A stretch of DNA of 64,000 bases from positions 1 through 64,000 of the forward strand of contig JBDLIA010000009.1 in NCBI GenBank assembly GCA_039715185.1, read 5' to 3'. The notes beneath the pieces were generated by a model. That model searched no databases. It was given only the letters and a program-made list of their open reading frames with translations, and was not told where the DNA came from. A program made the translations under genes and the position numbers. Source of the DNA: Gemmatimonadota bacterium (GTDB taxonomy: Bacteria; Gemmatimonadota; Gemmatimonadetes; Longimicrobiales; RSA9). This document shows, in pieces, positions 20,962-53,118 of the stretch; position 1 is the first letter of the stretch, and every line of letters starts with the position of its first letter.

Positions 20962-21759
20962 ATGCTGAAGACCCAAATCGGACGGGAAACGCGCGTCCAC
21001 GAGACGGCGATCCTGGACCCGGCCGCAAAGCTCGGCGCGGGCGTATCGATAGGGGCGTACAGCATCGTGGGCCCCGATGTCGAGATCGGCGAGCGAACGG
21101 CCGTCGGCCCCCACGTCCTGATCGAGCGCGACACCGTCGTGGGAGCGGACTGCACGCTGGCCAAAGGCGCCGTACTCGGGACGGACCCCCAGGATCTCAA
21201 GTATCACGGCGAAGCTACGTCGCTCGTGGTGGGTGACCGCACCGTCATCCGGGAGTACGCGACGCTTAACCGCGGCACGGCCGCGCGTGGCATCACCGAG
21301 GTGGGGCACGACTCGCTCCTCATGGCCTACGTGCACGTCGCGCATGACTGCGTTGTGGGAGACCACGTCGTGCTGTCGAACGCCGTGAACATGGCGGGCC
21401 ACGTGATCATTGGCGATCACGCCATTGTAGGCGGCCTGACGGCGATCCATCAGTTCGTGCGCATCGGCGAATACGCATTCATCGGCGGCGCATCCCGGGT
21501 GCCCAAGGACGTGCCGCCGTACGTGAAGGCGGCCGGCAACCCCATGCAGCTCTACGGGCTCAACAGTGTCGGCCTGCAGCGTGCCGGCTTCTCCGACGAC
21601 GTGCGCGCCCGGCTCAAGCGGGCCTATCGCATCTTCTTCCATTCCCAGCTCAACGTGTCACAGGCGGTGGAGCGGGTTCGGGACGAACTACCGGCGTCGC
21701 CGGAATTGGACACGTTCCTGGCGTTCGTGGAGGAGAGCGAGCGCGGCATCCTCGTCTAG
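20962..21759 (+). CDS. lpxA: UDP-N-acetylglucosamine acyltransferase
   Basis: 265 residues from ATG 20962, which has a GGGGGAGGGGAG site just upstream; the ATG at 20947 is less well placed. Beta-helix hexapeptides fill residues about 5-190. Family motifs are GTDPQDLKYHGE, the catalytic His in NMAGHVIIGDHA, and AIHQFVRIGEYAFIGG; a C-terminal helical domain follows. It starts lipid A synthesis. The stop codon TAG is the first CTAG of a 168-bp repeat (21756-21923), which separates it from the rest of the lipid A genes. Confidence 0.95.
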   Translation: MLKTQIGRETRVHETAILDPAAKLGAGVSIGAYSIVGPDVEIGERTAVGPHVLIERDTVVGADCTLAKGAVLGTDPQDLKYHGEATSLVVGDRTVIREYATLNRGTAARGITEVGHDSLLMAYVHVAHDCVVGDHVVLSNAVNMAGHVIIGDHAIVGGLTAIHQFVRIGEYAFIGGASRVPKDVPPYVKAAGNPMQLYGLNSVGLQRAGFSDDVRARLKRAYRIFFHSQLNVSQAVERVRDELPASPELDTFLAFVEESERGILV

Positions 21760-21923
21760 TGTACCGTTACAGAAGTTTCGATGGCATTCAGCGCGCGCTG
21801 CAGCCCGCGAGGGCATCGTTGCCGCTCCTCACCGTAGCTACGGCTACGCTTCGTCGCGGCGCCTTGCTTCGCGGGTGCTTCGCACGCTTCGGTGCACACG
21901 CAACTTCCGTTACGGTACACTAG
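21756..21923 (-). repeat. 168-bp palindromic repeat, copy A (inverted relative to B and C)
   Basis: The copy starts with CTAG at 21756 (inside the lpxA stop) and ends with CTAG at 21923. Its ends are CTAGTGTACCGT and ACGGTACACTAG. Reverse-complemented, it aligns without gaps over all 168 bases with copies B and C, at lower identity than those share with each other. The two halves are imperfect inverted repeats around a central CCGTAGCTACGG. It lies between lpxA and the oxidoreductase gene, whose ATG is only 7 bases beyond the right end. Most likely a small non-autonomous mobile element. Confidence 0.88.
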
Positions 21924-21930
21924 CGAGAAT

Positions 21931-22911
21931 ATGTTGCGTCTCGGAGTCGCCGGCGTGGGGAGCCTGGGGTTCCACCACGCTCGTATCCTGCGCGACCTGG
22001 ACGGGGTCGCTGCGGTGACCGCGCATGACACCGACCCGGACCGGCTCGTCCACGTGGCGACCGAGTTGCAGTTGGAAACCCGGCCCGATCTGCCCTCTCT
22101 GCTCGATTCCATCGACGCTCTCGTCGTGGCGGTGCCCACGTCGGCGCACGAGGAAGTGGCCCTTCAGGCGCTCGAGCGCGGCATGCCCGTGCTCATCGAG
22201 AAGCCCATCGCCGCCGACCTCGAAGAAGCCGACCGCATCCTGGGAGCCGCGGAGTCGGCGGGCGCCATGGTGCAGATCGGGCACGTCGAGCGCTTCAACG
22301 GCGTGCTGCGCGCCTGTGAGCCCTACCTGGAGTCACCGCTCTTCATCGAATCCCACAGGCTCGCGCCCTTCAGGGCCCGCGGCACCGACGTGGCGGTGGT
22401 TCTGGACCTGATGATCCACGACCTGGACCTGGTCCTGAGCATCGTGGGCCAGGACGTACGCGGCCTCTCCGCGACCGGCGTGCCGGTCCTGTCGCCGAGC
22501 GCCGACATCGCCAACGCGCGCATCGAATTCGAAGGCGGCTGCGTTGCCAATCTGACGGCCAGCCGCGTGTCCCTCGAACGTAAGCGCAAATTCCGATTCT
22601 TCCAGCCTTCGGGCTACGTAAGCCTGGACCTGGACGCGGGGGTGGGGGAGTTTCTGCGCATCCGGTCGGAGGCGGGATTCGCACCGGGCGTGCCCTTGCC
22701 CGCGGCGCGCCTGGAGGACGCGGTGGAGAGGGTCACGCTGCGGTCCGACGGCGGCGAACCGCTGCGTCACGAGCTGGAGAGCTTTCTGAAGGCCATCCGT
22801 GGGATGGCTGCGGTTTCCGTGTCGGGCGAGGACGGGCGACGCGCGCTCGCGACCGCGCTCGATATCATGAAACAGATCGAATCCAATGTCGCTCTTGCGC
22901 GTTCTACGTGA
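21931..22911 (+). CDS. Gfo/Idh/MocA-family oxidoreductase, possibly GnnA-like
   Basis: 326 residues from ATG 21931. N-terminal Rossmann fold (LGVAGVGSLGFHHARIL), then the family signature EKPIA (near 90) and a C-terminal alpha/beta substrate domain (IGHVERFNGVL; DLMIHDLDLVLSI). The family includes GnnA, the UDP-GlcNAc 3-dehydrogenase that makes 3-amino sugar lipid A precursors and sits beside lpxA in some species. The position between lpxA and lpxB supports a lipid A sugar role, but no GnnB aminotransferase is nearby, so the substrate is inferred. No clear ribosome-binding site, since a repeat ends 7 bases upstream. Its 3' end overlaps the next small gene. Confidence 0.8.
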   Translation: MLRLGVAGVGSLGFHHARILRDLDGVAAVTAHDTDPDRLVHVATELQLETRPDLPSLLDSIDALVVAVPTSAHEEVALQALERGMPVLIEKPIAADLEEADRILGAAESAGAMVQIGHVERFNGVLRACEPYLESPLFIESHRLAPFRARGTDVAVVLDLMIHDLDLVLSIVGQDVRGLSATGVPVLSPSADIANARIEFEGGCVANLTASRVSLERKRKFRFFQPSGYVSLDLDAGVGEFLRIRSEAGFAPGVPLPAARLEDAVERVTLRSDGGEPLRHELESFLKAIRGMAAVSVSGEDGRRALATALDIMKQIESNVALARST

Positions 22912-23023
22912 ACGGCGAGGGGGTCGCCTGCCGACCACCCCGCCGAGGCTCTGGAGGCTGCTCGCCGGACTCCTAATCGTGATCCTCATGATCTGGATGG
23001 CGACCCGCATCGCCAGCGGGTGA
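22886..23023 (+). CDS. 45-residue single-pass membrane protein before lpxB
   Basis: A short frame from ATG 22886 overlaps the end of the oxidoreductase gene by 26 bases and ends in TGA that overlaps the GTG of lpxB (GTGA at 23020-23023). The product has a basic N-terminus (RVLRERRGGRL), then about 20 hydrophobic residues (LLAGLLIVILMIWMA), consistent with one transmembrane helix. Perfect stop/start coupling on its 3' side, and filling of an otherwise empty 108-bp gap, support translation. No family recognised. It could be a small partner of LpxB or just a coupling peptide. Confidence 0.55.
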   Translation: MSLLRVLRERRGGRLPTTPPRLWRLLAGLLIVILMIWMATRIASG

Positions 23024-24156
23024 GCGCACCGAGCATCCTCATCGCCGCCGGAGAAGCGTCCGGCGACATGCACGGGGCCGCCCTGGTTCGAGCCCTCCGG
23101 CGGCGGCTGCCCGGTGTTCGGCTGTGGGGCCTCGGCGGCCCCCGCATGTCCTCCGAGGGAGTAGAGCTGCTCGCCGGCCTGGACAGGCTGGCCGTGATGG
23201 GGTTCGCCGAGGTAGCGCGCCACCTGCCGTATTTCTTCTTCCTGATGCGGCGGCTGCGGCGGGAGCTGGTCGAGCGACGGCCCGACCTGATCATCCTCAT
23301 CGACTACCCCGGGCTGAACATGCGGCTCGCGCGCGCCGCACGCGCCGTAGGCGTTCCGGTGCTGTACTACGTCGCGCCCCAGGTGTGGGCGTGGAAGCGC
23401 CGCCGGGCTCGGGATCTCGCGCGCACGGCCGACCGGGTAGCCGTAATCCTGCCCTTCGAGCCCGACGTTCTGCGCAGTGCGGGCGTCCGCGCGGAGTTCG
23501 TGGGCCACCCCCTGATGGAGGAGCGAGCGCGTCCGCTGGGTCGCGAAGAGTTCTGCGCCGACCTCGGGCTGGACCCCGGACGGCCGCTGTTGGCGATCTT
23601 TCCGGGATCCCGTCGCCAGGAGGTCTCGCGCCACCTGGAGACGTTCGCCATGGCGGCGACGATGGCCGCCGCCGACTCGGACGCCCAGACAGTAGTCGCG
23701 CAGGCCGCTGGAGTCGACGACTCGCAGTTCGAGCCCGCGGACGCCCCCCGCACGCGCGACGCCTGGACCCTCCTGAGCCACGCGCGGGCGGCGTTGATCA
23801 AATCGGGCACGGGTACGCTGCAGGCGGCCATCGCGGGCACCCCGATGGTGGTGGCGTACCGGACGAGCGCGGCGACGTTCGCGCTCGCCCGCCGACTGGT
23901 GCGGGTGCCGCATGTCTCACTGGTCAACCTGATCGCGGACTCGGAAGTGGTTCCCGAGTTCCTCCAGGAACGCGCCGACCCGGCCACGCTCGCGGACGCC
24001 CTGCGAGCCCTGTTGCGCGATGGCCCGACGCGCTCCGACATGCTGGCGGGTCTGGCGCTGGTGCGCGCGTCGTTGGCCGCTCCGGGACCGCTGACGCCGA
24101 GCGAGCGCGTAGCCGAGATGGCCGCCGAGTTGCTGCAAGCTGCCGCCTCTTCATGA
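23020..24156 (+). CDS. lpxB: Lipid-A-disaccharide synthase
   Basis: 378 residues from GTG 23020. GT19-family signatures: ILIAAGEASGDMHGA at the N-terminus, LIDYPGLNMRLARAAR, YYVAPQVWAWKRRRA, FVGHPLMEE, FPGSRRQEV and SGTGTLQAAIAGTPMVVAYR. It condenses UDP-diacylglucosamine with lipid X to make the lipid A disaccharide at the inner face of the membrane. The lipid X-forming hydrolase (LpxH, LpxI or LpxG) is not in this window. ATGA overlap with the next gene. Confidence 0.95.
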   Translation: MSAPSILIAAGEASGDMHGAALVRALRRRLPGVRLWGLGGPRMSSEGVELLAGLDRLAVMGFAEVARHLPYFFFLMRRLRRELVERRPDLIILIDYPGLNMRLARAARAVGVPVLYYVAPQVWAWKRRRARDLARTADRVAVILPFEPDVLRSAGVRAEFVGHPLMEERARPLGREEFCADLGLDPGRPLLAIFPGSRRQEVSRHLETFAMAATMAAADSDAQTVVAQAAGVDDSQFEPADAPRTRDAWTLLSHARAALIKSGTGTLQAAIAGTPMVVAYRTSAATFALARRLVRVPHVSLVNLIADSEVVPEFLQERADPATLADALRALLRDGPTRSDMLAGLALVRASLAAPGPLTPSERVAEMAAELLQAAASS

Positions 24157-24812
24157 AGCTGTCCCGGCTTCCGGGCCTGGCGAAATGGGGGCCGCCCGCC
24201 GGCGCCCTGCTCCTGGAGGCGCTCCTGAGCACCGTCCGCGTGGAGATTCGCCCCTCGCCCGGAATGACGCGCCTGGATGAGGCGGAGGAGCCATACGTCG
24301 TCGTGTTCTGGCACGGCCGCTTGTTGCCGCTGGCCTACGCCTACAGGGGCAGCGGCGTGGCCACGCTGATCAGCCGATCGCGCGACGGCAGGGCCATAGC
24401 GGAGGTCGCCTCGCGTTGGGGCTACCGAATCGAGCGGGGGTCGAGCTCTCGGGGGGGCTCCATGGGACTGCGCGGGGTCGTGCGGCATCTCGAGGCTGGG
24501 CGGCGGGTGGCGCTCACCCCCGACGGCCCCCGTGGCCCGGCCCGCGTGATGAAGCTGGGCCCGCTGCTGGCGGCCCGCTTGACCGGCGCGCCCATAGTGC
24601 CGATCGGCATTGCCGCCAACCGCGCCTGGCACGTGGGGAGCTGGGATCGCTTCATGCTGCCCCAACCCTTCGCGCGCGTCCTCATTCAGTTCGGCGAGCC
24701 GCTGCGGGTGCCGGCCGACGCCTCCGACGCGCAGGTGGAGAGCCTCAGGGAGCGGCTGGAAGGGGCCCTGAACGAGCTGGTCGATCGTACGGATGCCGAT
24801 GTCCGCGGCTGA
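24153..24812 (+). CDS. DUF374 lysophospholipid-acyltransferase-like protein
   Basis: 219 residues from ATG 24153, overlapping the lpxB stop. Family motifs are VVFWHGRLLPLAYAY (His of the acyltransferase HxxxxD-like region), LISRSRDGRAIAEV, RGGSMGLRGVVRHLEAGRRV, TPDGPRGPARVMKLG and GAPIVPIGI. DUF374 proteins belong to the LPLAT fold and are usually placed with lipid A or Kdo genes, where they may act as acyltransferases of lipid A. Exact donor and acceptor are not known. The gap-free position between lpxB and lpxK argues for a role in lipid A. Confidence 0.88.
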   Translation: MKLSRLPGLAKWGPPAGALLLEALLSTVRVEIRPSPGMTRLDEAEEPYVVVFWHGRLLPLAYAYRGSGVATLISRSRDGRAIAEVASRWGYRIERGSSSRGGSMGLRGVVRHLEAGRRVALTPDGPRGPARVMKLGPLLAARLTGAPIVPIGIAANRAWHVGSWDRFMLPQPFARVLIQFGEPLRVPADASDAQVESLRERLEGALNELVDRTDADVRG

Positions 24813-25809
24813 ATGGGCGGGCGCATACGTGAGCGGCCACGCGGTTCGGGGCAGGGCGGCCGCCGACGCCGCGTTGTGGCCGGCCGAGCTGGCCTACCGC
24901 GGCGTCTCCGCCGCGCGGCGGGCGGCGTACCGACGGGGCCTCTTGCGGGCGCATGAGCCGCCGATCCCGGTGGTCTCGATCGGCAATCTGGTATTGGGCG
25001 GAGCGGGCAAGACGCCGGTGGCAGCCTACATCGTCCGCCTGCTCGGCGAGCTGGGCGCGCGACCGGCATTGGTCCACGGCGACTATGCGCGTGACGAGCC
25101 CGACCTCCACCGGCGCTGGAACCCCGATGCGCCCGTGATCGGTGACCCATCCCGCATCGCCGCGGTCCGGCGCGCGGCGCAGGCAGGGGCCGATGTTGCC
25201 GTGCTGGACGACGGCTTCCAACATCTGGCCCTGGCGCGCTCGCTGGATGTGGTACTCGTGCCGGCCGAGCGGTGGCAGGATGCCCCGCGCCTGCTGCCCC
25301 GGGGGCCGTGGAGGGAGCCGCCCGCGGCGCTGTCCCGCGCCGACTTCGTGGCGCTTACCCACCGGGGCGCCGACGAGCGAGCGTTGGCCGCGGCGCGTAG
25401 CGGAGTCGCCAGGGTGATCGGCGCGCCGCCGGGCGGCGACATCGTCATCGAGCCGGCAAGCTGGAGCCCCCTGGGAGCGCCCGACCAGACCACCGCCGAC
25501 GGACCGGCGGGGCCGGCCGTGGCCGTGTGCGCCATTGCGCACCCCGAGGGTTTTCGCAGCAGCGCCACCGCGGCCGGCTGCGTCGTGGCCGAACTGCTCG
25601 GCTACCGGGACCACCACGAATTCACGGAGCGAGACCTGGACGACATCGTCGCCGCCGCCTCGGGGCGCCCCGTGGTCACCACGGAAAAGGACGAAGGGAA
25701 GCTGGCCCGACTCGGCCAGCGCGTGCCCGTTTGGGTCCTGCGGGAGCGCGTACGGGTGCGGCGCGGATCGGCCGCGCTGGAAGACCTGCTGCGGCGGGTG
25801 GTGGGGTGA
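24793..25809 (+). CDS. lpxK: Tetraacyldisaccharide 4'-kinase
   Basis: 338 residues. P-loop SIGNLVLGGAGKTPVAAYIV (about 55-75) is the LpxK signature; further motifs are VLDDGFQHLALARSLDVVLV and, at the C-terminus, HHEFTERDL and VVTTEKDEGKL. It phosphorylates the 4' position of the lipid A disaccharide at the cytoplasmic face of the inner membrane. The start overlaps the preceding gene by 20 bases; ATG 24799 is an alternative. GTGA overlap with nadB. Confidence 0.94.
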   Translation: MPMSAAEWAGAYVSGHAVRGRAAADAALWPAELAYRGVSAARRAAYRRGLLRAHEPPIPVVSIGNLVLGGAGKTPVAAYIVRLLGELGARPALVHGDYARDEPDLHRRWNPDAPVIGDPSRIAAVRRAAQAGADVAVLDDGFQHLALARSLDVVLVPAERWQDAPRLLPRGPWREPPAALSRADFVALTHRGADERALAAARSGVARVIGAPPGGDIVIEPASWSPLGAPDQTTADGPAGPAVAVCAIAHPEGFRSSATAAGCVVAELLGYRDHHEFTERDLDDIVAAASGRPVVTTEKDEGKLARLGQRVPVWVLRERVRVRRGSAALEDLLRRVVG

Positions 25810-27359
25810 GCGAGCGGCGCGTGTTGGTCATCGGCAGCGGCGTCGCGGGCCTCAGCTTCGCCCTCAAGCTCGCGGATCACGCGCGCGTTACCCTGGTCAC
25901 CAAGAAGCACCGGGCCGAATCCAACACCAACTACGCGCAGGGAGGGATCGCCGCCGTCCTGGACCCTCTGGATTCGCCGGAGGACCACGTCCGCGACACG
26001 ATCGACGCCGGAGCCGGTCTGTGCCACGCCGAGGCCGTGGAGCGCCTGGTGCGGGAGGGGCCCGCCCGCGTCCGCGAGTTGATCGACTGGGGCGTAGAGT
26101 TCTCCCGCACTGGAGCCCGGCTGCATCTCGGCCGGGAGGGCGGCCACTCGCGCCGGCGCATCGTGCACGCTCTCGATCGCACCGGATGGGCCATAGAGAC
26201 GGCCCTGCTGGAGGCGGTGGCGGAGCATCCGGCCATCGAGGTTCTGGAGGATCACCTGGCGGTGGACCTGCTGGTCGCCGACGGACCGAAAGAGCGAAGC
26301 TGCCGCGGCTGCCTCGTCTACGATCGCATTGGTGGCACCACCGCCGCCGAGCGAGCGGACTATACGCTGCTGGCCACCGGCGGCGTCGGGCGCATCTACC
26401 GGCACACGACCAATCCCGCCATCGCCACCGGCGACGGTCTGGCCATGGCGTGGCGGGCGGGCGCACACGTGGCCAACCTCGAGTTCATCCAGTTCCATCC
26501 CACCGCGCTGTTCCCGGCGGAGGACAGGGCCGTGCTGATCTCGGAGGCGGTGCGCGGAGAGGGCGCGGAGCTGCTGAACATCGCGGGCCGGCCCTTGATG
26601 CAGCACCACCCGGGTGGCTCGCTCGCGACCCGCGACGTGGTCGCGCGCACCATCGACCTGGAGCTGAAGCGCACCGGCGAGCCTCACGTCCTCCTGGACG
26701 CGTCCCGAATCCCCAAGCGGACGCTGGAGGCCCGCTTCCCGAACATCGTGGCCGAGTGCGCCGCGCGCGGCCTGGACATGACCTCGGAGCCGATTCCGGT
26801 GGTGCCGGCGGCGCACTACTCGTGTGGCGGCGTGGCGACGGACGCCGACGGACGCACCAGCCTCGCGGGACTGTTCGCGGTGGGGGAGGTGGCGTTCACG
26901 GGCGTCCACGGGGCCAACAGGCTGGCGTCGAACTCGCTCCTCGAGGCGGTCGTATACAGCCACCGCGCCGCGCTCGCGGTCGCCGCCGGGCTCCCTCGCC
27001 ACGACACGGAGGACGATGGAGCGCCGGCCTCCGAAGACGTCGAGCCCGGCCCCGACGATGAGGACCGAGGACCCGTCGAGACGCGCATCCGGAGCGTCAT
27101 GTGGCGGGACGTGGGCATCGTCCGCGACGATCAGCATCTGGACACCGCGGCGGCGGCGCTGGAGGACATGGAGGCGGCCCCGGCGACGCTGGCCGGGCTG
27201 CGCGGATCCGGCCGCATCGAAGCGCGGAATCTGTTGCTGTCGGCCCGGCTGGTCGCCGACTGCGCGCGGCTCCGCAAGGAGAGCCGCGGTCTGCATTTCA
27301 ATCTCGACCATCCGGACCCCGACGCAGAGTTCGCCGCGGACACGGTGCTGCGCCCATGA
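25806..27359 (+). CDS. nadB: L-aspartate oxidase
   Basis: 517 residues from GTG 25806. FAD-binding N-terminus VLVIGSGVAGLSFALKL, then NYAQGGIAAVL, EGGHSRRRIVHALDRTG, FIQFHPTAL and the C-terminal flavin-contact GEVAFTGVHGANRLASNSLLE. It oxidises aspartate to iminoaspartate, first step of de novo NAD synthesis. The FAD domain is followed by an acidic, proline-containing insert (about 415-440) before the succinate dehydrogenase-like C-terminal helices. nadA and nadC are not in the window. ATGA overlap with rlmH. Confidence 0.94.
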   Translation: MSERRVLVIGSGVAGLSFALKLADHARVTLVTKKHRAESNTNYAQGGIAAVLDPLDSPEDHVRDTIDAGAGLCHAEAVERLVREGPARVRELIDWGVEFSRTGARLHLGREGGHSRRRIVHALDRTGWAIETALLEAVAEHPAIEVLEDHLAVDLLVADGPKERSCRGCLVYDRIGGTTAAERADYTLLATGGVGRIYRHTTNPAIATGDGLAMAWRAGAHVANLEFIQFHPTALFPAEDRAVLISEAVRGEGAELLNIAGRPLMQHHPGGSLATRDVVARTIDLELKRTGEPHVLLDASRIPKRTLEARFPNIVAECAARGLDMTSEPIPVVPAAHYSCGGVATDADGRTSLAGLFAVGEVAFTGVHGANRLASNSLLEAVVYSHRAALAVAAGLPRHDTEDDGAPASEDVEPGPDDEDRGPVETRIRSVMWRDVGIVRDDQHLDTAAAALEDMEAAPATLAGLRGSGRIEARNLLLSARLVADCARLRKESRGLHFNLDHPDPDAEFAADTVLRP

Positions 27360-27838
27360 AGTTGTGGATCGTAACCGTAGGGCGGCCGGGTGGGGGTCTG
27401 GCCGCGGCCATCGGCGCGTACGAGGCGCGCGCTGCTCGCTATTGGAAGCTCGAATCCGTAGAAGTGAAGGGAGGAGCGCCCGGGGGCAGGCGCTCCTCGA
27501 CCGACGTGCGGGAGGCGGAGGGTGCGAGAATTCTGGACCGCCTTCCCGAACACGCCGAGGTGATCGCGCTCACGCGCCAGGGCCTCGCGTGGAGCTCGCG
27601 CGATTTGGCCCGACACCTGGACGAGCGGCGCCTGAGCGGCCAGGAGGGGTCCGCGTTCGTGATCGGCGGCGCCGACGGGCTGGCGTCCGCTGTCCTCGAG
27701 AGGGCTCGCGTCCGCCTGTCTCTCTCGCCCATGACGTTGCCGCACGACCTGGCGCGGCTAGTGCTGATGGAGCAACTCTACCGCGCCGGGACCATTCTGC
27801 GCGGGGAGCCCTATCACAAGGGAGGGGAGGGGGCGTGA
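27356..27838 (+). CDS. rlmH: 23S rRNA pseudouridine1915 N3-methyltransferase (RlmH)
   Basis: 160 residues, normal for the SPOUT-family RlmH. Motifs are EVIALTRQGLAWSS, the SAM-binding knot FVIGGADGLASAV, and the C-terminal LSLSPMTLPHDLARLVLMEQLYRAGTILRGEPYHK, which is the family signature in position and order. It methylates the pseudouridine in helix 69 of 23S rRNA on 70S ribosomes. It overlaps nadB and bshC by four bases each. Confidence 0.94.
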   Translation: MKLWIVTVGRPGGGLAAAIGAYEARAARYWKLESVEVKGGAPGGRRSSTDVREAEGARILDRLPEHAEVIALTRQGLAWSSRDLARHLDERRLSGQEGSAFVIGGADGLASAVLERARVRLSLSPMTLPHDLARLVLMEQLYRAGTILRGEPYHKGGEGA

Positions 27839-29439: not shown

Positions 29440-29448
29440 CTTCGCCCC

Positions 29449-29727: not shown

Positions 29728-29728
29728 G

Positions 29729-31370: not shown

Positions 31371-33206
31371 GTGAGCGCAACCTTCGACCCCCGCGGAAAA
31401 AGCCTCCCGGCGCGCCCCGGGGTCTACCTGTTCAAGGACCGACGCGGACGCATCCTGTACGTGGGGAAGGCCAAGTCCCTACGGGCGCGCGTGCGCGGCC
31501 ATTTCAATTCTGAAAGCACCACCTCGGCCAAGAATCGACAGATGCTCGCGCGCGTGGCCGACGTCGAGACGATCGTCGTGGCGAGCGAGGCCGAAGCGCT
31601 TCTTCTGGAAGCGAACCTCATCAAGGCGCACCACCCCCGCTTCAACATCCAGCTCCGGGACGACAAGCGATACCCGTACGTGAAGGTCACGCTCGCCGAG
31701 CCCTTCCCGCGCGTCCTCGTCACCCGCCGGGTCGAGAACGACGGCGCGCGATACTTCGGGCCGTACACGGACGTGGGCGCCCTGCGCCACGCGCTGGAGG
31801 TCATCAAGCGGGCGCACACGGTGCGCAGCTGTCGCTACGCCCTGCCAACCGAGCGGCCCGCCCGGCCCTGTCTCGACCACCACATCGGCCGCTGCGAGGC
31901 GCCCTGCGTGGGGCTTCAGACGCAAGCGGAATACGGCCGCATGATCGCGGAGGTAGTGGACGTGCTGGGCGGCCGCACGGGCGGGGTTCGCGGCCGCGTG
32001 GAGGCGGAGATGCGGGAATCGGCCGAGCGGCTCGACTTCGAGCGCGCCGCGGAGCGTCGCGACGTCCTCCAGGGTCTGGCCGCCATCGAGCGGCGCCAGC
32101 GAGCGCTGGACGTGCGCGGGGGAGACGTCGATGCTCTGGGGGTCGCACGCGACGGGGAGCGCGCGGCCGCCGTCCGTCTCCGCGTACGGGGCGGCAAGCT
32201 GCTCGGCAGGGAGGTGGACTTCTTCGAGAACGCGGACGAAGTCGACTCCGGCGGAGTGCTCGCCGCCGCCGCCACGCGCTTTTATCTGGGCCGCGGAGAG
32301 CACGGCGTCGATGACCTGCCCCGTGAGATCCTCGCTCCCGAGGAGTTCGAGGACCGCGCGGCGCTGGAGGAGATCCTGAACGAGCGGGGGGGACGGCGCC
32401 TGCGCGTTCGCGTGCCCCAGCGTGGGGCCAAGACCCGGTTGGTTCACCTCGCCGCTCAGAACGCGCGTCACCTGCTGGAGGAGAGGGCCGTCCTGCGTCC
32501 CGACGTCGGCGAGCGCGCGGAGGACGTTCTCTACGAGCTTCAGGAAGCCCTCGACCTGAAGGTGGTCCCTCGCCGCATCGTTTGCTTCGACGTCTCCCAC
32601 ACGCAGGGCACCGAGGTCGTAGCGAGCGCCGTGACCTTCGAGAACGGCGCCCCGCGCAAGGCCGGCTACCGGCGCTTTCGGATCCGCGGCGACTGGGGCA
32701 ACGACGACCTCCGGTCCATGGCGGAGGTGGTCGAGCGTTACATGCGGCGGCGCCTCGAGGAGGACGACACGCTGCCCGATCTCATGCTGATAGATGGCGG
32801 CAAGGGTCAGCTCCGCGCCGCGCTGAAAGCCGCCGTCTCCGCGGGAGCGGCGGACGTCGAAGCCGTCGCCCTGGCGAAGCGCGAAGAAGAGATTCACCGA
32901 ACGGGGGGGAGGGCGCCCGTCCGCCTGGCCGTCAGAAACCCCGCGCTGCGCCTGCTTCAGCGTGCGCGCGACGAGGCCCACCGGTTCGCGCACGGATACA
33001 ATCGCCGTCTGCGCGGGAAGCGGACGCTCAGGAGCAGCCTGTCGGAGGTGCCCGGAATAGGCCCTGCGCGTCAGCGGGCGCTGCTGGTCCAGTTCGGTAG
33101 CGTGTCGGCGATCCGGGCCGCCGCCGAGCAGGACATCGCCGCCATACCTGGCATCTCGCCCACGCTGGCACGCACGCTGAAGAGTCACCTGGAGCGCTCC
33201 GGCTGA
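31371..33206 (+). CDS. uvrC: Excinuclease ABC subunit C
   Basis: 611 residues from GTG 31371. GIY-YIG nuclease at the N-terminus (GVYLFKDRRGRILYVGKAKSLRARV), a Cys-containing region (ARPCLDHHIGRCEAPC), a UVR motif (about 205-240), the RNase H-like second nuclease domain (CFDVSHTQGTEVVAS, then LMLIDGGKGQLRAAL) and two C-terminal helix-hairpin-helix motifs (SEVPGIGPARQRALL; IAAIPGISPTLARTL). It makes both incisions in nucleotide excision repair. uvrA and uvrB are not in the window. Confidence 0.97.
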   Translation: MSATFDPRGKSLPARPGVYLFKDRRGRILYVGKAKSLRARVRGHFNSESTTSAKNRQMLARVADVETIVVASEAEALLLEANLIKAHHPRFNIQLRDDKRYPYVKVTLAEPFPRVLVTRRVENDGARYFGPYTDVGALRHALEVIKRAHTVRSCRYALPTERPARPCLDHHIGRCEAPCVGLQTQAEYGRMIAEVVDVLGGRTGGVRGRVEAEMRESAERLDFERAAERRDVLQGLAAIERRQRALDVRGGDVDALGVARDGERAAAVRLRVRGGKLLGREVDFFENADEVDSGGVLAAAATRFYLGRGEHGVDDLPREILAPEEFEDRAALEEILNERGGRRLRVRVPQRGAKTRLVHLAAQNARHLLEERAVLRPDVGERAEDVLYELQEALDLKVVPRRIVCFDVSHTQGTEVVASAVTFENGAPRKAGYRRFRIRGDWGNDDLRSMAEVVERYMRRRLEEDDTLPDLMLIDGGKGQLRAALKAAVSAGAADVEAVALAKREEEIHRTGGRAPVRLAVRNPALRLLQRARDEAHRFAHGYNRRLRGKRTLRSSLSEVPGIGPARQRALLVQFGSVSAIRAAAEQDIAAIPGISPTLARTLKSHLERSG

Positions 33207-33245: not shown

Positions 33246-33413
33246 CTAGTGTGCCGGCGCGGAAATCCCGTGTGCATCGAGGCGCGTGATGCGCCCGCGA
33301 GGCAAGGCGGAACGACGCGCCGTAGCTGTAGCTACGGCAAGGAGTTCCAACGCCGCATCCGCGGGATGCAGCGCGCGCCGAATGCCTACGGGACTTCTGC
33401 AACGGTACGCTAG
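33246..33413 (+). repeat. 168-bp palindromic repeat, copy B
   Basis: It starts and ends in CTAG, is 168 bp long, and differs from copy C at about 6 positions by eye (about 96% identity). The left arm pairs with the right arm over nearly the whole length, with a centre around GTAGCTGTAGCTAC. It lies between uvrC and larC. The reading frame that runs through it (with a Met-Met-Arg-Pro start) is shared with copy C but broken by a stop in copy A, so it is not coding. Confidence 0.9.
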
Positions 33414-42971: not shown

Positions 42972-42980
42972 TCCTGCCGC

Positions 42981-43054: not shown

Positions 43055-43078
43055 TTGCTGTAACGCTGGAGGCCCCTC

Positions 43079-43624: not shown

Positions 43625-43793
43625 CGCCCCCGACCCGAACGGCCTGAAGATCTACCCGCCGATACGCGGCTTCCTCATCGTCGCCGCCGGTGCTCCGGGA
43701 GCGCTCGGTTTGGCCTCCGCGGTGAAGCGCGGGCGCGCCCGGCTCGTATTATCCCCGGAGCGGAGACGAGAGCCAAGAATCGCGGCGGGAGCC

Positions 43794-44678: not shown

Positions 44679-44692
44679 AACGGAGCGAAGCA

Positions 44693-46029: not shown

Positions 46030-46053
46030 GGCGCCCGGCGGGCGGCCCGCGGG

Positions 46054-46082
46054 GTGACCCGGAAGCCCCCGGGCCCTATCTT
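46054..46082 (+). promoter_or_regulatory. Possible promoter of the ccm operon
   Basis: GTGACC (46054-46059), a 17-base spacer and TATCTT (46077-46082) lie 71 bases upstream of the ccmA start, in the only sizeable gap between lemA and the ccm genes. Match to consensus is moderate. Confidence 0.4.
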
Positions 46083-46152
46083 TGCGCGGTTCGCGGGCGG
46101 GGCGGTGACGCCTCGCCCGGTTTGTCGACCTGTGCTTTCGCCCGCATAGCTA

Positions 46153-46869
46153 TTGAGACCTGACCAGGCCACGCCTTCGACGCCTCCCGCGCTCGTGCTG
46201 CGGGGCGTCGCCCGTCGCTTCGAGCGCCACTGGGCGCTGCGCGGGGTGGACCTGACCGTCCGCTCCGGAGAGTCGATCGCGCTCGCGGGCCCGAACGGCA
46301 GCGGCAAGACCACGCTGCTGCGCATCGCCGCGACGCTGATTCGCCCCACGCGGGGAGCGGGCGAGGTGTGCGGCCACGACCTGGTTCTCGGCGCGGACGC
46401 GGCGCGCCGAAACGTGGGACTGCTCGCTCATCGTACCGGCCTGTACGAGGATCTTTCCGCCCGGCAGAACCTGAGCTTCGCGGCGAGGATGCTCGGCCTG
46501 GGCCCGCGCCCGGCAAGCCTGGCCGTCGTTCTCGACAGGGTCGGCCTGTCAGCCCACGCTGATCGCAGGGTCCGGGGGTTCTCCTCGGGCATGCGCCGCA
46601 GGCTCGCGCTGGGACGGCTGCTGCTCGCGCCGCCCCGGCTGCTGCTGCTCGACGAACCCTTCGCCAGCTTCGACGCCGCCGGCCTGGAGCTCCTCGAAGG
46701 TGTGACGCGCGAGCTCTCCGAGGCTGGCAGCTCGGTCGTCGTGGCCACCCACGACCTGGTGAGGGCAAGCAGGATCGTCGACCGCGTGGTCTACCTGAAG
46801 AGAGGCCGGGTGGTACCGAGCAACCCGGCCGGCTCGGCGCGCGGCCTGCCCGCGACCGTGGCCCGTTGA
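46153..46869 (+). CDS. ccmA: Heme exporter ATPase CcmA
   Basis: 238 residues from TTG 46153. ABC ATPase with Walker A GPNGSGKTT, signature region FSSGMRRRLALGRLLL, Walker B LLLLDEPF and H-loop ATHDL. The non-standard signature SSG is normal for CcmA. It powers the CcmABCD complex that releases holo-CcmE. TTGA overlap with ccmB. Confidence 0.93.
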   Translation: MRPDQATPSTPPALVLRGVARRFERHWALRGVDLTVRSGESIALAGPNGSGKTTLLRIAATLIRPTRGAGEVCGHDLVLGADAARRNVGLLAHRTGLYEDLSARQNLSFAARMLGLGPRPASLAVVLDRVGLSAHADRRVRGFSSGMRRRLALGRLLLAPPRLLLLDEPFASFDAAGLELLEGVTRELSEAGSSVVVATHDLVRASRIVDRVVYLKRGRVVPSNPAGSARGLPATVAR

Positions 46870-47570
46870 GCGCGCACCCCTCCGAATCCGGCGCCGGCGA
46901 GATCTCGCGTATCCTGGCGGTCGCATGGAAGGACGTCCTGATGGAGGCGCGTTCGCGCGCGAACTTCGCCGCGGTCGTGGGGTTCGCCGTGCTGATGCTC
47001 GTCCTGTTCGGGTTCGCGCTAGGGCCGGACTCGCGGGCGCTCGCCCAGGCGGCGGCCGGCGTCCTCTGGCTGACCGTGATCTTCAGCTCGGTGCTGGCGT
47101 TCGGGCGAACCTACCAGCTGGAACTCGAGGACGGGGCTCTGGACTCCCTCCTCATGTACCCGGGAGACCGGCGCTCGCTGTTCCTCGGGAAGGTGATCGG
47201 CGCGCTCGCGTTCGTGTTCGCCGTGGAGGCGATCGTGGTACCGCTGGCAGGCATTCTGTACGGGCTGCCTGTGTTGGTCGCACTGCCCGACCTGCTGCCG
47301 ATCATGGTATTGGGCACGATCGGGATCGTGGCGCTCGGTACTTTCTACGCCGGCATGGCGAGCCGCGTCCGAGCCCGGGAGGTTCTGCTTCCCCTGCTGC
47401 TTTTTCCCATGCTCGCCCCCATTGTAATCGCCGCGGTCAAAGCGACCGACGTGGTGCTCATCGGCGACGCCATCGCCGAGCGCGTGAACTGGCTCGGCCT
47501 GCTCGCCGGATTCGACGCGATCTTCCTGGCGGCGGCGTACCTGCTATTCGGCGCCGTCGTAGAGGACTGA
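46866..47570 (+). CDS. ccmB: Heme exporter permease CcmB
   Basis: 234 residues from TTG 46866, overlapping ccmA. About six membrane segments. Features include RILAVAWKDVLMEARSRANF at the N-terminus, ELEDGALDSLLMYPGDRRSLFLGK, and a long hydrophobic C-terminal half. Membrane partner of CcmA in cytochrome c maturation. Confidence 0.92.
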   Translation: MSAHPSESGAGEISRILAVAWKDVLMEARSRANFAAVVGFAVLMLVLFGFALGPDSRALAQAAAGVLWLTVIFSSVLAFGRTYQLELEDGALDSLLMYPGDRRSLFLGKVIGALAFVFAVEAIVVPLAGILYGLPVLVALPDLLPIMVLGTIGIVALGTFYAGMASRVRAREVLLPLLLFPMLAPIVIAAVKATDVVLIGDAIAERVNWLGLLAGFDAIFLAAAYLLFGAVVED

Positions 47571-47598
47571 CGGCCTAGACGACCAGGAGGTCTCGACC

Positions 47599-48339
47599 TT
47601 GATCCCGGACAACGACACAGGAGCGGCGGCTGCCGCCGGGCCGCTGCTGCGGCGGGGACCGGCGCTCGCCCTATTCGGCCTGGCCGCGGCGGCGTTCTTC
47701 GCTTACGCGCAGTGGTACGGCCTGAACACCGGTCCCGAGCGGGACATGGGGCACCTGCAGAAGATCCTGTACGTGCACGTGCCGTCCGCCTGGATCGCCT
47801 TCCTCTCTTTCGCCGTCGTGTTTCTCGCCGGGGTTTGGTACCTGGCGACGCGCAGCGAGCGCGCCGACGAGCTGGGCGCTTCGGCCGCCGAGGTCGGCAC
47901 GCTCCTGAACGGACTGGTGCTTCTCCAGGGCATGATCTGGGCGAAGCCCAGTTGGGGAGTATGGTGGACGTGGGACGCGCGGCTCTCCTCCACGTTGGTG
48001 CTGTTTCTGGTGTTCGTCAGCTATCTGGCGCTGCGGGCGCTGGTGGACGACCGCGAGCGGCGGGCACGCTGGAGCGCGGTGGTCGGCATACTCGGGGCGT
48101 TGGGCGTTCCGGTCGTCTACATGTCCGTGCGCTGGTGGCGCACGCTGCACCAGGTGCAGTCCACTCCGTCCACCATGGACCCGGCGTTCGCCACCGGGCT
48201 GCGGCTCAACGCCTTCGGCGTCCTGTTCGTGGGCGCCTTTCTCGTGCTCCTCAGACGCCGTGTCGCGCGCATGGACGCGGCGGTCGAGGCGATCGCAGAC
48301 GAACGCGCGCTGCGAGGGGAGGTCGATCATGTCGGGTGA
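47599..48339 (+). CDS. ccmC: Heme lyase CcmC
   Basis: 246 residues from TTG 47599, with CCAGGAGG upstream. Six membrane segments. Heme-handling motif WGVWWTWDARLSS, and the conserved His in LYVHVPSAW and in the WRTLHQ region. It loads heme onto CcmE in the periplasm. Overlaps the ccmD-like gene by 11 bases. Confidence 0.94.
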   Translation: MIPDNDTGAAAAAGPLLRRGPALALFGLAAAAFFAYAQWYGLNTGPERDMGHLQKILYVHVPSAWIAFLSFAVVFLAGVWYLATRSERADELGASAAEVGTLLNGLVLLQGMIWAKPSWGVWWTWDARLSSTLVLFLVFVSYLALRALVDDRERRARWSAVVGILGALGVPVVYMSVRWWRTLHQVQSTPSTMDPAFATGLRLNAFGVLFVGAFLVLLRRRVARMDAAVEAIADERALRGEVDHVG

Positions 48340-48478
48340 ATGGGGATGGGTCGCTGCGGCGTACGGGATTACCTGGGGAACGCTCCTTCTCTACTGGGGA
48401 TACGTGATGCGCAGGCAGCGCCGCGCTAGGCGCGCCCTGGAAGAGATCCTCGCTAGCGAGTCGGAGAACCCGCAATGA
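48329..48478 (+). CDS. ccmD: CcmD-like small membrane protein
   Basis: 49 residues from ATG 48329. One membrane segment (about 6-26; GWVAAAYGITWGTLLLYWGYV) followed by a basic cytoplasmic stretch (RRQRRARRALEE), the exact layout of CcmD. Position between ccmC and ccmE is diagnostic. ATGA overlap with ccmE. Confidence 0.85.
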   Translation: MSGEWGWVAAAYGITWGTLLLYWGYVMRRQRRARRALEEILASESENPQ

Positions 48479-48933
48479 TCCTCGAACGGAACCGAAAGCG
48501 GCTGACGGTGGTTGCGGGTCTCGTCATCATTCTGGCGGGTTTCAGCTACCTGGCTTGGGGCGGACTCGGGGAGAATCTGGTCTACTTCGTGACCCCCACG
48601 GAGCTGTCCGAACGCGGAGACGAAGGCGTGGACACTCCGGTACGCCTGGGCGGCATGGTCACGCCCGGCAGCGTGTCCTGGAAGGCCGACGAGCTGGACC
48701 TGCGATTTCAGCTCACGGACGGCGCCACCAGCTACGACGTGAAGGCGACCGGCGCTCCGCCCCAGATGTTTCGCGAGGGGATCGGCGTGGTCGTGGAGGG
48801 CAGCCTACAGACCGACGGCGAGTTCCACGCGCACAGCCTGATGGTCAAGCACTCCAACGAGTACCGCGCCCCCGCGGAGGGCGAGCGCCCGGAGGACCTC
48901 TACCGCGAGTTGGTCGGGCCGGATGCCGGCTAG
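48475..48933 (+). CDS. ccmE: Heme chaperone CcmE
   Basis: 152 residues. N-terminal membrane anchor (about 10-30), then the CcmE beta-barrel (VRLGGMVTPGSVSW; VEGSLQTDGEFHAHSLMVKHSNEY). The heme-binding histidine is in KHSNEY, matching the HxxxY type rather than the CxxxY variant. It carries heme to CcmF. Confidence 0.94.
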   Translation: MILERNRKRLTVVAGLVIILAGFSYLAWGGLGENLVYFVTPTELSERGDEGVDTPVRLGGMVTPGSVSWKADELDLRFQLTDGATSYDVKATGAPPQMFREGIGVVVEGSLQTDGEFHAHSLMVKHSNEYRAPAEGERPEDLYRELVGPDAG

Positions 48934-48963
48934 GCTCGCCGCCAGACACGGAGAGCGCGAGGC

Positions 48964-50985
48964 GTGATCCGCATCCTAGGTCACAGCAGCATCGTGGCGG
49001 CGTTGCTCGTCGCCGGCTACGGCGTGGCAGCGGCGGTGGGCGGCGTGCGCAGGGGCCGCGCGGACCTCCTGAGCAGCGCGCGCGTCGCCACCTACGCCAC
49101 CTTCGCGCTGCTGCTGGCCGCCAACCTGGCGATGGTCTACGCGCTCGTGACGCACGACTTCAGCGTGGGCTACGTCGCGCAGGTCGGGAATCGCTCCACG
49201 CCGCTGTTCTACACGGTCATCTCGTTGTGGGGCGCGCTCGAGGGATCCATCCTCTTCTGGGGACTGGTCCTGGCGGGGTATTCGGCGGCGGTCGTGTTCC
49301 TGAACCGGGACCGGCACGGGTCGCTGGTGCCGTACGCCACGGCGACGCTACTCGTCATAGGCATCTTCTTCTACCTGCTCCTGCTGGGTCCCGCCGATCC
49401 GTTCACGCTGGTCGATCCCGTACCGGCCGATGGACCGGGGCCGAACCCGCTGCTGCAGAACCACATTCTCATGGGCATCCACCCGCCCCTGCTGTACCTG
49501 GGGTACGTGGGGTTGTCCGTGCCGTTCGCGTTCGCGATCGGGGCGCTTCTGAGCGGCAGGGTCGAGGACGGCGCGTGGCTGCGCCTGACCCGACGATGGA
49601 CGATCGCTGCGTGGGCTTTTCTGTCGCTGGCGATCATGGCGGGCATGTGGTGGTCCTACGAGGTGCTGGGCTGGGGCGGCTACTGGGCCTGGGATCCCGT
49701 CGAGAACGCGTCCTTCCTGCCGTGGCTGACCGCGACGGCGTTCCTGCACTCGGCCATGGTGGAGGAGCGCCGCGGGCTGCTGCGCATGTGGAACCTGAGC
49801 CTCATCGTGGCGACGTTCCTGCTGACGATCTTCGGGACGTTTCTGACGCGCAGCGGTATCGTGGCGTCGGTCCACGCCTTCGCCGAAGGCGAGATAGGCT
49901 ACTGGTTCCTGGGCTTCATCGCCGTTTGCCTGGTCTTCTCCCTGGCGCTGCTGCTCGGCCGCAGCGCGGCGCTCCGCTCCGAGGGGCGCCTGGGCGGAGT
50001 GGCGACCCGGGAGACCGTATTCCTGTTCAACAACCTGCTCCTCACGGTGTTCACGTTCACCGTGCTGCTCGGCACCGTGTATCCGCTGGTGGCCGAGGCG
50101 TTCCGGGGGGTCAAGGTCAGCGTGGGCGCGCCGTTCTTCAATCGCATGACGCTGCCGCTCATCGTCGCGCTGCTGTTCCTGCTCGGCGTCGGCCCCGCGT
50201 TGCCGTGGCGAGCCGCGACGCGCGAGGAGCTCAAGGAGCGGTTCCGGGTGCCGACGATCGCGGCGGTGGCGGCGCTGGCGTTTGCGGTTCTTGTCGGCAC
50301 ACGCAACCCCTACGCGTTCGCCGCGTTCGCGTTCGCCGGCTGGGCGGGCGCCACCAACCTCCAGGAGTTCTGGCGCGGGGCCAGGGCGCGGATGCGCGCT
50401 CACGGCGAAGGGCCCGCCACCGCGCTGGTTCGGCTCGTGCGCTCGGGCGGGCGGCGCTACGGCGGCTACGTCGCGCACCTGGGCATCCTCATGATGGCGG
50501 TGGGCATAGCGGCCTCATCGGTGTTCCGGGTCGAGACCGAGCGGACCCTGAGGCCCGGGGAGACGCTCGAGATAGAGGGCTACACGCTGCGCTTCGACGG
50601 CGTCTCGGCGCGCGAAGAGCCGAGGCGTTTCGTGGTGTGGGCCGACATGGCGCTCCTGGACGCGGCCGGCGAGCCGCGTGAGGTGCTCCGTCCGCGGCTG
50701 AACTTCTACCGCACCAGCGACCAGCCGGTCACCACGCCCGCGGTAAGGGAGCGGCCCCACCGGGACCTCTACCTCGTGCTGATGGCCTTCGAGCGCGACG
50801 GGTCGTCGGTCACGATCCAGGCGCTGGTGCAGCCGCTCGTGGTATGGATCTGGATCGGCGGCGTGGTGGTGGCCCTGGGCGCCTTGATCTCGCTCCTGAC
50901 CGGCCGACGACGCGGCAAGCCGGGCCGGCTTTCGCGCACGGACGCGATTCGCCTCACCCGGGCGCCGACCGCGGGCGCGCCGTGA
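48964..50985 (+). CDS. ccmF: Cytochrome c heme lyase CcmF
   Basis: 673 residues from GTG 48964. About 14 membrane segments, the tryptophan-rich motif GWGGYWAWDPVENASFLPW and conserved His residues (HSAMVEERRGLL; HPPLLYLGY). A large C-terminal periplasmic region precedes the last membrane segment. It joins heme to apocytochromes with CcmH. GTGA overlap with ccmG. Confidence 0.95.
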   Translation: MIRILGHSSIVAALLVAGYGVAAAVGGVRRGRADLLSSARVATYATFALLLAANLAMVYALVTHDFSVGYVAQVGNRSTPLFYTVISLWGALEGSILFWGLVLAGYSAAVVFLNRDRHGSLVPYATATLLVIGIFFYLLLLGPADPFTLVDPVPADGPGPNPLLQNHILMGIHPPLLYLGYVGLSVPFAFAIGALLSGRVEDGAWLRLTRRWTIAAWAFLSLAIMAGMWWSYEVLGWGGYWAWDPVENASFLPWLTATAFLHSAMVEERRGLLRMWNLSLIVATFLLTIFGTFLTRSGIVASVHAFAEGEIGYWFLGFIAVCLVFSLALLLGRSAALRSEGRLGGVATRETVFLFNNLLLTVFTFTVLLGTVYPLVAEAFRGVKVSVGAPFFNRMTLPLIVALLFLLGVGPALPWRAATREELKERFRVPTIAAVAALAFAVLVGTRNPYAFAAFAFAGWAGATNLQEFWRGARARMRAHGEGPATALVRLVRSGGRRYGGYVAHLGILMMAVGIAASSVFRVETERTLRPGETLEIEGYTLRFDGVSAREEPRRFVVWADMALLDAAGEPREVLRPRLNFYRTSDQPVTTPAVRERPHRDLYLVLMAFERDGSSVTIQALVQPLVVWIWIGGVVVALGALISLLTGRRRGKPGRLSRTDAIRLTRAPTAGAP

Positions 50986-51638
50986 GCTGGGTGCGCGCGG
51001 CGTTGGGGGCGCTGGCTGCCGTGCCTATCCTCGCGCTGTTGCTTTTCGGCATGGGGCGCGATCCGCGCGCCATCGAGTCACCTCTGCCGGGCCGCGCCGC
51101 GCCTGCGTTCGAGCTGCCGAGGCTGGATGGAACCCCCACGCGGGGAGCAGCGGCGACTGCGGATCTGCCCGACCTGTACTCCCTGGGCGCCGACAGCGGC
51201 GACATCGTCGTGGTCAACTTCTTCGCGTCTTGGTGTGTGGCGTGCCGCAACGAGCACGGGCCGCTGGGCGAAGCCGCCGAGTTCTACGCCGACAGCGGCG
51301 TGCGCTTTTACGGCGTCGCCTATCAGGACCGGCCGGAGGATGCCCTGCGCTGGATAAGGGGCATGGGCGGGCAGGTGTACCCGGCGTTGCTCGACCCCGG
51401 GTCCCGCACGGCCATCGAGTACGGCCTGTGGGGCGTCCCCGAGACCTTCTTCGTGGATCGCGACGGACGCGTCGCGTACAAGCACGTCGGTCCGGTGTAC
51501 CGAGGGCTGCTGACCGAGCGGATCGAGGCGCTGCTGGCGGGGGAGACCGAAGTGGACGGCGAGGCGGCGACTTCCTCGCCGGGTTGGCAACGCGGCGCGG
51601 AGGCTCCAGGCGCCACGCCGGAGCTGGGCGTCCCGTGA
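50982..51638 (+). CDS. ccmG: Periplasmic thioredoxin CcmG/DsbE
   Basis: 218 residues from GTG 50982. N-terminal membrane anchor (about 5-23), then a thioredoxin fold with redox motif WCVACRNEHGPL, GVAYQDRPEDALRWI and cis-Pro region YGLWGVPETFFVDRDG. It reduces the CxxCH motif of apocytochromes. The roughly 30-residue tail after the thioredoxin fold is Gly/Ala/Pro-rich and dispensable-looking. GTGA overlap with ccmH. Confidence 0.93.
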   Translation: MSWVRAALGALAAVPILALLLFGMGRDPRAIESPLPGRAAPAFELPRLDGTPTRGAAATADLPDLYSLGADSGDIVVVNFFASWCVACRNEHGPLGEAAEFYADSGVRFYGVAYQDRPEDALRWIRGMGGQVYPALLDPGSRTAIEYGLWGVPETFFVDRDGRVAYKHVGPVYRGLLTERIEALLAGETEVDGEAATSSPGWQRGAEAPGATPELGVP

Positions 51639-52075
51639 CGCGCCGGTCCGCGGCGGCGGGCGCGTGCCTGCTGGTGCTCGCTGGCTTCGGCCCTGGCCCG
51701 GGCGGCGCCTCCGCCGAGACGGGCATCGACCAGGCGCCGGCCAACGACTCCATCGTCGAGGCGCGCACCCGCCAGATCGCCTCCGGGCTGCGCTGCGTGG
51801 TGTGCCAGGGTCTATCGATCGAGGACTCTCCCGCGGAGCTAGCACGCGAGATGCGGGCTATCGTCAAAGAGCAGGTGACCGCGGGCCGTTCGAGCGAGGA
51901 GATCGAGGCCTACTTCGTGGCCCGCTACGGCGAATTCGTACTGCTCGAGCCCAGGGCCGAGGGCTTCAACCTCCTGGTGTACGGACTGCCGATGGCGGCC
52001 ATGGCGCTCGGCGCGCTGTTCGTGCTCCGGTTCGTGCGCCGGTGGAGCGGGGAAGCGACCGAATCGGCCGACTGA
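51635..52075 (+). CDS. ccmH: Cytochrome c maturation protein CcmH
   Basis: 146 residues from GTG 51635. Signal peptide (about 1-27), then the CcmH redox motif LRCVVCQGLSIEDSPAELAREMR, the helical bundle QVTAGRSSEEIEAYFVARYGEFVLLEPR and a C-terminal membrane segment (about 110-130). No CcmI-type TPR domain is attached. Ends the ccm operon; lgt follows 22 bases later. Confidence 0.92.
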   Translation: MTRRSAAAGACLLVLAGFGPGPGGASAETGIDQAPANDSIVEARTRQIASGLRCVVCQGLSIEDSPAELAREMRAIVKEQVTAGRSSEEIEAYFVARYGEFVLLEPRAEGFNLLVYGLPMAAMALGALFVLRFVRRWSGEATESAD

Positions 52076-52097
52076 TCAAACACATGGAGGGGCGGCG

Positions 52098-52943
52098 ATG
52101 TACCCGGTTCTGTTCGAGATAGGAGGCTTCGAGGTCACCAGCTTCGGCGTGATGATCTTCCTGTCGTTCCTGACGGGCGCGTGGATCCTTTCGCTTCAGC
52201 TCGAGCGGCGCGGAATGGACCCGGAGATCGCGTGGGAAATCCTCGCCGCGACCGCGATCGCGGGCGTTCTGGGGGCCAAGCTCTACTACATGGGGTTGCA
52301 CTGGCGCGACTTCGCCGCCGACCCCATGGGCGAGCTCCTCAGCCGCGCCGGGCTCGTCTGGTACGGCGGGCTGATAGGCGGCGTGCTGGCGTTCTACTGG
52401 CAGGCCAAGAAGAAGGGTCTGCCGATCGCCACCATGTTCGACGGCGCCGCGCCGGCGCTGGGTCTGGCCTACGCGGTGGGGCGCGTGGGGTGCTTCTTGG
52501 TGGGCGACGACTACGGCTTGCCCACCGAAAGCGGCGTCGGGATCGCCTTCCCGCAGGGCTCGCCGCCGAGCACGGCCGGCTACTTCCGCTCTCTGGGCGT
52601 CGAGGTGGATGCCGCCTTGCCCGACAACGCGGTGCTCGCTGTGCACCCGACGCAGTTGTACGAGATCGGAGGCGGACTGATCATGTTCGCGATCCTCTGG
52701 CAGATGTCCAAGCGCGCCCTGCGGCCCGGTCAGTTGTTCGGCGCCTTCCTGGTGCTCTACGGCATCGAGCGCTTCGCGGTGGAGTTCGTCCGGGCGAAGG
52801 GAGATCGCTTCGTGTTCGGTCTCACCACGTCCCAGATCGCCAGCGTCGTGGCTCTGGGAGTGGGGGCGTGGCTGTGGGCGCGCAGACCGTCCCGGCCGGG
52901 GGCGACGGAGTCGTCAGCGGCGGCCGCCGCTTCTTCCGGCTAG
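52098..52943 (+). CDS. lgt: Prolipoprotein diacylglyceryl transferase
   Basis: 281 residues. Seven membrane segments. Lgt signature GRVGCFLVGDDYGLPT, then HPTQLYEIGGGLIMF and GIERFAVEFVRAKGDRF. The usual HGG of E. coli Lgt is YGG (LVWYGGLIGG), a variant found in other groups too. It transfers diacylglycerol to lipobox cysteines, needed by the Lol system at 9387. The gene ends 7 bases before repeat C. Confidence 0.95.
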   Translation: MYPVLFEIGGFEVTSFGVMIFLSFLTGAWILSLQLERRGMDPEIAWEILAATAIAGVLGAKLYYMGLHWRDFAADPMGELLSRAGLVWYGGLIGGVLAFYWQAKKKGLPIATMFDGAAPALGLAYAVGRVGCFLVGDDYGLPTESGVGIAFPQGSPPSTAGYFRSLGVEVDAALPDNAVLAVHPTQLYEIGGGLIMFAILWQMSKRALRPGQLFGAFLVLYGIERFAVEFVRAKGDRFVFGLTTSQIASVVALGVGAWLWARRPSRPGATESSAAAAASSG

Positions 52944-52950
52944 TCGACCT

Positions 52951-53118
52951 CTAGTGTGCCGGCGCGGAAGTCCCGTGTGCACCGAGGCGCGTGATGCGCC
53001 CGCGGGGCAAGGCGGAACGACGCGCCGTAGCCGTAGCTACGGCAAGGAGTTCCAACGCCGCATCCGCGGGATGCAGCGCGAGCCGAATGCCTACGGGACT
53101 TCTGCAACGGTACACTAG
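52951..53118 (+). repeat. 168-bp palindromic repeat, copy C
   Basis: It starts and ends in CTAG; 168 bp; about 96% identical to copy B by eye. It lies between the convergent lgt and tamB-like genes. The right-hand CTAG (53115-53118) supplies the TAG stop of the minus-strand tamB-like gene. Its strong internal pairing could serve as a bidirectional transcription barrier here. Confidence 0.9.

Follow-up and report, generated by a model that had tools for sequence, protein, structure and literature searches.

The window analysed here, a stretch of 64,000 nucleotides that makes up the first 64 kb of contig C9, carries three copies of a mobile hairpin element. That this is a real element and an order-wide one is strongly supported. 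It is dispersed, it has inserted at sites found empty in related genomes, its length and fold are retained across the order, the pairs of its inner stem covary as do those of its ends, one of its strands is preferred, and in related genera its ends are identical to those of IS1182-family insertion sequences. The explanation that we favour, with a probability of roughly one half, is a non-autonomous hairpin transposon moved in trans by an IS1182-type transposase and combining exchangeable ends with a structured body conserved throughout the order.

Copy A lies at 21756..21923 on the minus strand, copy B at 33246..33413 and copy C at 52951..53118, both on the plus strand. All of them are full-length elements of 168 bp bounded by CTAG and they align without gaps once A is reversed, exactly as the earlier note had described. 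Copies B and C (B subfamily) are identical at 162/168 positions, so the six differences estimated by eye were the six counted, and copy A (A subfamily) is indeed more diverged, with 129/168 identities to B and 131/168 to C. The imperfect inverted repeat was confirmed to form one long hairpin, as RNA folding closed each copy end to end (A −100.5, B −111.0 and C −115.0 kcal/mol), and copy C folded as DNA gave z = −7.5 against dinucleotide shuffles. On the plus strand of copy C, the left terminal arm (52951..52976) comprises the TA/CTAG junction and a terminal inverted repeat of about 22 bp and is a lineage-variable part of the element; the right terminal arm (53094..53118) is complementary to it, both arms being delimited by alignment A5 (described below) and pair counts. 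Further inside, the unpaired CCGA of an internal loop (52982..52985) stands opposite an unpaired GAA (53085..53087), and an apical hairpin, CCGTAGC(CGTA)GCTACGG, occupies 53025..53042. The intergenic location of the copies also holds within the window: the left CTAG of copy A (21756-21759) contains the TAG stop of an LpxA-like ORF (20707-21759), copy B is flanked by uvrC (31371-33206) and by the gene of a nickel-insertion protein, and the TamB-like gene at 53115-57233 on the minus strand has its stop codon within the right CTAG of copy C.

The host genome (3.66 Mb in 252 contigs) was searched by BLASTN. Copy B as query gave 43 matches and copy A gave 46, and the two subfamilies, A and B, were resolved; confinement of the repeat to the three window copies was thereby ruled out. 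With a tolerance of 2 mismatches, the end pattern CTAGTGTRCCGNNRCRGAAGT was matched 144 times in this genome, against 0 times for the reversed control. The repeat is thus not a product of chance, and at least about 70 elements are present. In the host-genome stretches examined there were 25 complete copies of 167-169 bp, and about 45 element ends ran into contig ends, so that the repeat contributes to the fragmentation of metagenome assemblies in this group. Neighbouring elements were found inserted side by side with one CTAG in common. As a separate observation, a 22-bp remnant, CTAGTGTGCAACGGTACACTAG, directly adjoins a full element at two loci (L053:3623-3791 and L055:2519-2686), again with the CTAG in common. 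At two others, a 91-bp copy (L118:98-188) and a 168-bp copy (L127:2831-2998) each abut the 5' end of an apparent tRNA gene of the same kind (GGACGGGTGTCCGAGCGG...).

Besides the complete copies, about 20 shortened ones were detected (39, 58, 65, 66, 67, 81, 84, 91, 93, 95, 97 and 98 bp, and a few more). These have kept both ends and lost the tip of the hairpin, and their lengths are nearly all different, so they look like the products of single events that did not multiply; every non-shortened copy measured 167-169 bp. This distribution suggests that only the full hairpin multiplies. The 91-bp class, with five copies of which one is A-type, may reflect deletions that recurred at a GATGC/CGCG repeat, or else a single mobile derivative, and in so far as a single derivative may have moved, it counts against a requirement for the full hairpin.

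To find empty sites, a single query of joined element flanks, the eighth site excepted, was run against the genus of G012. The empty sequence GGGA CTAT CCGT of G026 corresponded to the filled GGGA CTAG[element]CTAC CCGT of G076, with flanks 97% identical, and conversely the empty TTAG of G076 to the filled TTAG...CCAG of G026. Likewise, the CTAG at the groEL stop codon was empty in G070, G083 and G050 and filled in G012. At that locus (L225) the element lies exactly at the stop codon (GGMY-TAG), and the sister species have the empty site. Insertion was clean at a TA, usually within CTAG and often at the stop codon of a gene, and empty sites contained one TA and filled sites two. Among 111 elements, the inner G of the left junction was present in 110/111 and the inner C of the right junction in 111/111, and the outermost bases varied (12 and 19 of 111). 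Fixed inner bases together with independently varying outer ones indicate that the sequence gained is TA or CTA. Duplication of the four-bp CTAG was rejected, since left and right tetramers differ independently. Palindromic target flanks, which copies A and C had suggested, were not above chance over 100 sites.

Beyond the host genome, a plain DNA search matched 5/61 genomes, and a search for the ends with one mismatch allowed recovered homologues of 168 bp and 165 bp in two other families (G019, G108). Covariance model R1, built from 14 elements and applied with at most 18 matches scored per genome, located the element in 87/154 genomes and in 36/61 genera of the order, mostly at a full length of 164-169 bp and with a patchy occurrence across genera. 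The exact end pattern had 0 matches in GTDB contigs because the ends differ between lineages. Searches of viral contigs (three patterns) and plasmids found no element, no known covariance model of Rfam matched at E <= 0.5, and no description of the element was found in Rfam or in the literature searched. The copy number, the two subfamilies, the empty sister sites and the order-wide length of 164-169 bp bear out the suggestion of the earlier note that this is a dispersed family of fixed length that spread over time.

Related forms were observed as well. At L312:3660-4344 of G012 (3.74 Mb), a related element forms a tandem array of at least four 171-bp copies arranged head to tail, with CCAG in place of the CTAG junctions. 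In the parts of this genome sampled (L303, L306, L310, L312, L314 and L298), the commonest form measured about 253 bp and contained sequence additional to that of the model. Longer CTAG-bounded relatives of about 280-410 bp with the same core occur in G032, G060, G058 and G007 (L040, L041, L043, L045-L051), with several different end types within one genome. The right flank of one of these, used as query, had about 100 or more matches in genus g12.

Selection on the fold was studied in alignment A5, made with MAFFT from 38 elements of most carrier genera. Changes on both sides of the pair were found in 50/59 stem pairs. In the inner stem these were 30/35 pairs, as against a mean of 15.8 in shuffled and at most 17 in slid versions, and in the terminal stem 20/24; the slid controls collapsed. 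In the apical hairpin, GTAGC/GCTAC became ATAGC/GCTAT in other genera, which is a compensatory change. The conserved structure proposed from the window copies is consequently upheld by strong covariation across the order. Pairing could also be kept by template switching or hairpin repair that copies one arm to the other, without selection. In favour of this, long palindromes undergo arm-to-arm correction, and one 91-bp copy (L118) has CTGG...CCAG ends. However, the CCGA and GAA of the internal loop were 95-97% conserved in the 38 elements and remained mismatched in at least 95% of them, which repair does not predict and which argues against it as the cause of pairing. Nor does repair predict the excess of G-T over A-C appositions described below, so that it is largely refuted and we regard it as very improbable.

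This strand bias was counted only in pairs common to the folds of both strands, because the structure had been predicted from the same sequences. There were 84 G-T against 19 A-C cells, and 29 against 13 pairs, counts that come from related sequences and are not independent. The direction was identical in inner and terminal stems, and young copies in the host genome had no such bias (7 vs 5). In addition, the plus strand folded more stably in 38/38 elements. Relative to the gene reading into them, elements had no preferred orientation (50 left : 51 right), and random insertion together with strand bias suggests that selection acts on a single folded strand, be it single-stranded DNA or RNA. 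The folded shape, and not the ends alone, therefore appears to be kept by selection. A replication-strand test in the complete genome of G012 had a noisy GC skew and about ten loci only.

A strong fold in one strand would also be expected of an RNA or DNA element that serves the host (a terminator, an mRNA stabiliser or a nucleoid site) and spread through its usefulness at the ends of genes. The elements are often flush with stop codons, a frame of at least 150 codons ending at the boundary TAG in 26/42 host-genome elements. However, CTAG tetramers are scarce and frequently stops, and compared with other CTAG sites the stop codons were in modest excess (55/131 vs 67/225 sides). Moreover, a host function fits poorly with the even orientation relative to genes, although one strand alone folds well, and with the patchy occurrence across genera. 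We consider it unlikely.

A helper transposase for the favoured transposon was looked for in the host genome and in the order. IS630-type DDE_3 (PF13358) was absent from the host genome, with control genomes positive, and no IS1182-family gene was detected there by PF13751 or by profile A2, the latter used without a positive control. None of the host-genome elements examined formed paired ends enclosing a gene, and the search of this genome for a full-length transposon with the same ends, a check that the earlier note had proposed, came back empty. Two PF01609 genes on contig C159 were considered as helpers and rejected, their ends being unrelated to the element. They belong to adjacent insertion sequences (L130/L131), assigned by reading as IS4-like and IS1380-like; both are flanked by CTAG, one of which they have in common.

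The collection was scanned with one IS1182 protein, a profile of seven being too diverse. In the order, IS1182-family insertion sequences measure about 1.5 kb and are bounded by CTAG. The ends of element L234 (G077) are identical over 19/19 bp to those of one of them, L149 (G024), from the same genus g12, and those of L049 (G058) over 21/21 bp to insertion sequence L146 (G035), the G058 element being a larger relative with the same core. Repeats of genera g12 and g17 measure 178-181 bp, have the same interior motifs and match the ends of the g12 insertion sequence over up to 19 bp. The host genome has ends of the type TGTACCGTTGCAGAAGT, and these TG-type ends (CTAGTGTNNYGTNNCNGAAGT) match IS1182 ends partially, at 11/17 positions after CTAG. 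A partner with matching ends was thus found in related genera only, and IS1182 genes did not track the element (9 genomes with both among the first 62, about 8 expected). These results, like the negative searches for an IS1182-family gene in the host genome and the partial match of its ends, count against the explanation that we favour. In both L234/L149 and L049/L146, similarity stopped after the ends of about 20 bp, which indicates that the interior is not derived from the insertion sequence and that the ends are exchangeable. A classical MITE, with ends left by internal deletion of an insertion sequence, a duplicated TA target and a body of no importance, would account for the small size, the inverted ends, the TA on both sides, the empty sites and the missing coding capacity. 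It does not account for a body dissimilar to the insertion sequence beyond its ends, conserved with compensatory changes over 36 genera and found with several end types, and this origin is accordingly improbable.

The junctions are not symmetrical. TA was lost at 27/134 left ends and at 10/135 right ends (p = 0.0026), and of the offset junctions (CTAG+G) four were at left ends and one at a right end. The right CTA may therefore belong to the element. This asymmetry is not predicted by plain duplication of TA and counts against our best explanation. It would be expected if a Y1 (HUH) transposase of the REPIN/RAYT kind read the folded plus strand and placed it 3' of CTA with no duplication of the target, in which case the right CTA would be part of the element and the left one part of the target. 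Selection of one strand to fold and the conserved mismatches within the hairpin agree with such a mechanism, and compensatory changes also occur in REPINs, hairpins whose movement is attributed to RAYTs (PMC3116915). On the other hand, no HUH-type motif of the RAYT kind was found in the loci searched, which total 1.5 Mb and lie mostly around elements, and in two related genera the element has the very ends of DDE (IS1182) insertion sequences. All REPINs known to us are, besides, shorter than about 165 bp. We hold this mechanism to be rather unlikely. For the IS1182 family itself, IS1272 has been reported to act on stem-loops and to make no target duplication (PMC5678879), and recognition of this kind would agree with the fold as well as with the odd junctions.

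Under the IS1182-based explanation, the element is a DNA hairpin of about 165 bp that carries no gene and sits at a TA, mostly within CTAG and often within a TAG stop. An IS1182-type DDE transposase would recognise its ends of about 20 bp and move it in trans. Multiplication would require the hairpin body, with one particular strand folded either as single-stranded DNA or as RNA, and each lineage would adapt the ends to the transposase at hand and keep the body. A further and more tentative proposal, which we hold possible but would not put at even odds, is that the transposon is structure-dependent: the folded single strand (DNA or RNA) of its conserved body of about 125 bp would itself be part of the transposition substrate, and this body would have lasted throughout the order with ends of about 20 bp borrowed from the transposase of each lineage and helpers switched repeatedly. 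Miniature elements are usually thought to need their ends only, to originate locally from a single insertion sequence and not to last long. Here, in contrast, more than 30 genera have retained a full hairpin body, with dozens of compensatory changes in it, and it is the ends that change. Whether a transposase reads a single-strand fold and whether a non-coding element can change helpers become testable questions.

With a length below 500 bp, inverted terminal repeats and no transposase gene, the element resembles MITEs, and as an extragenic hairpin with compensatory changes it resembles REP/REPIN sequences. It works like either and may belong to one or the other, though no partner with matching ends was found in the same genome and no RAYT motif in the 1.5 Mb of loci searched. 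MITEs of the ERIC/Correia (NEMIS) type have a TA target. Like the element, they are intergenic imperfect palindromes of about 100-200 bp, with many copies, internally shortened versions and a wide occurrence in related genera. However, no sequence relation to them was seen (no Rfam match), the element's ends match the IS1182 family in related genera and no DDE_3/IS630 gene is present in the host genome, and it combines several end types with one conserved body. ERIC itself reaches up to 711 copies per genome in Enterobacteriaceae and Vibrionaceae (PMC10969869). With REPINs the element has in common an extragenic hairpin as the replicative unit, a fixed length and compensatory changes (PMC3116915), and it differs from them in its 165 bp, its CTAG target, the lack of a RAYT-like motif in the loci examined and, in related genera, the ends that it has in common with DDE insertion sequences. 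Finally, unlike members of the IS1182 family the repeats encode no transposase, and unlike IS1272 they replace no inverted repeat at the empty sites found, their flanks not being palindromic beyond chance; nevertheless, the ends of the repeats resemble those of the CTAG-bounded members of this family, about 1.5 kb long, that occur in the order.
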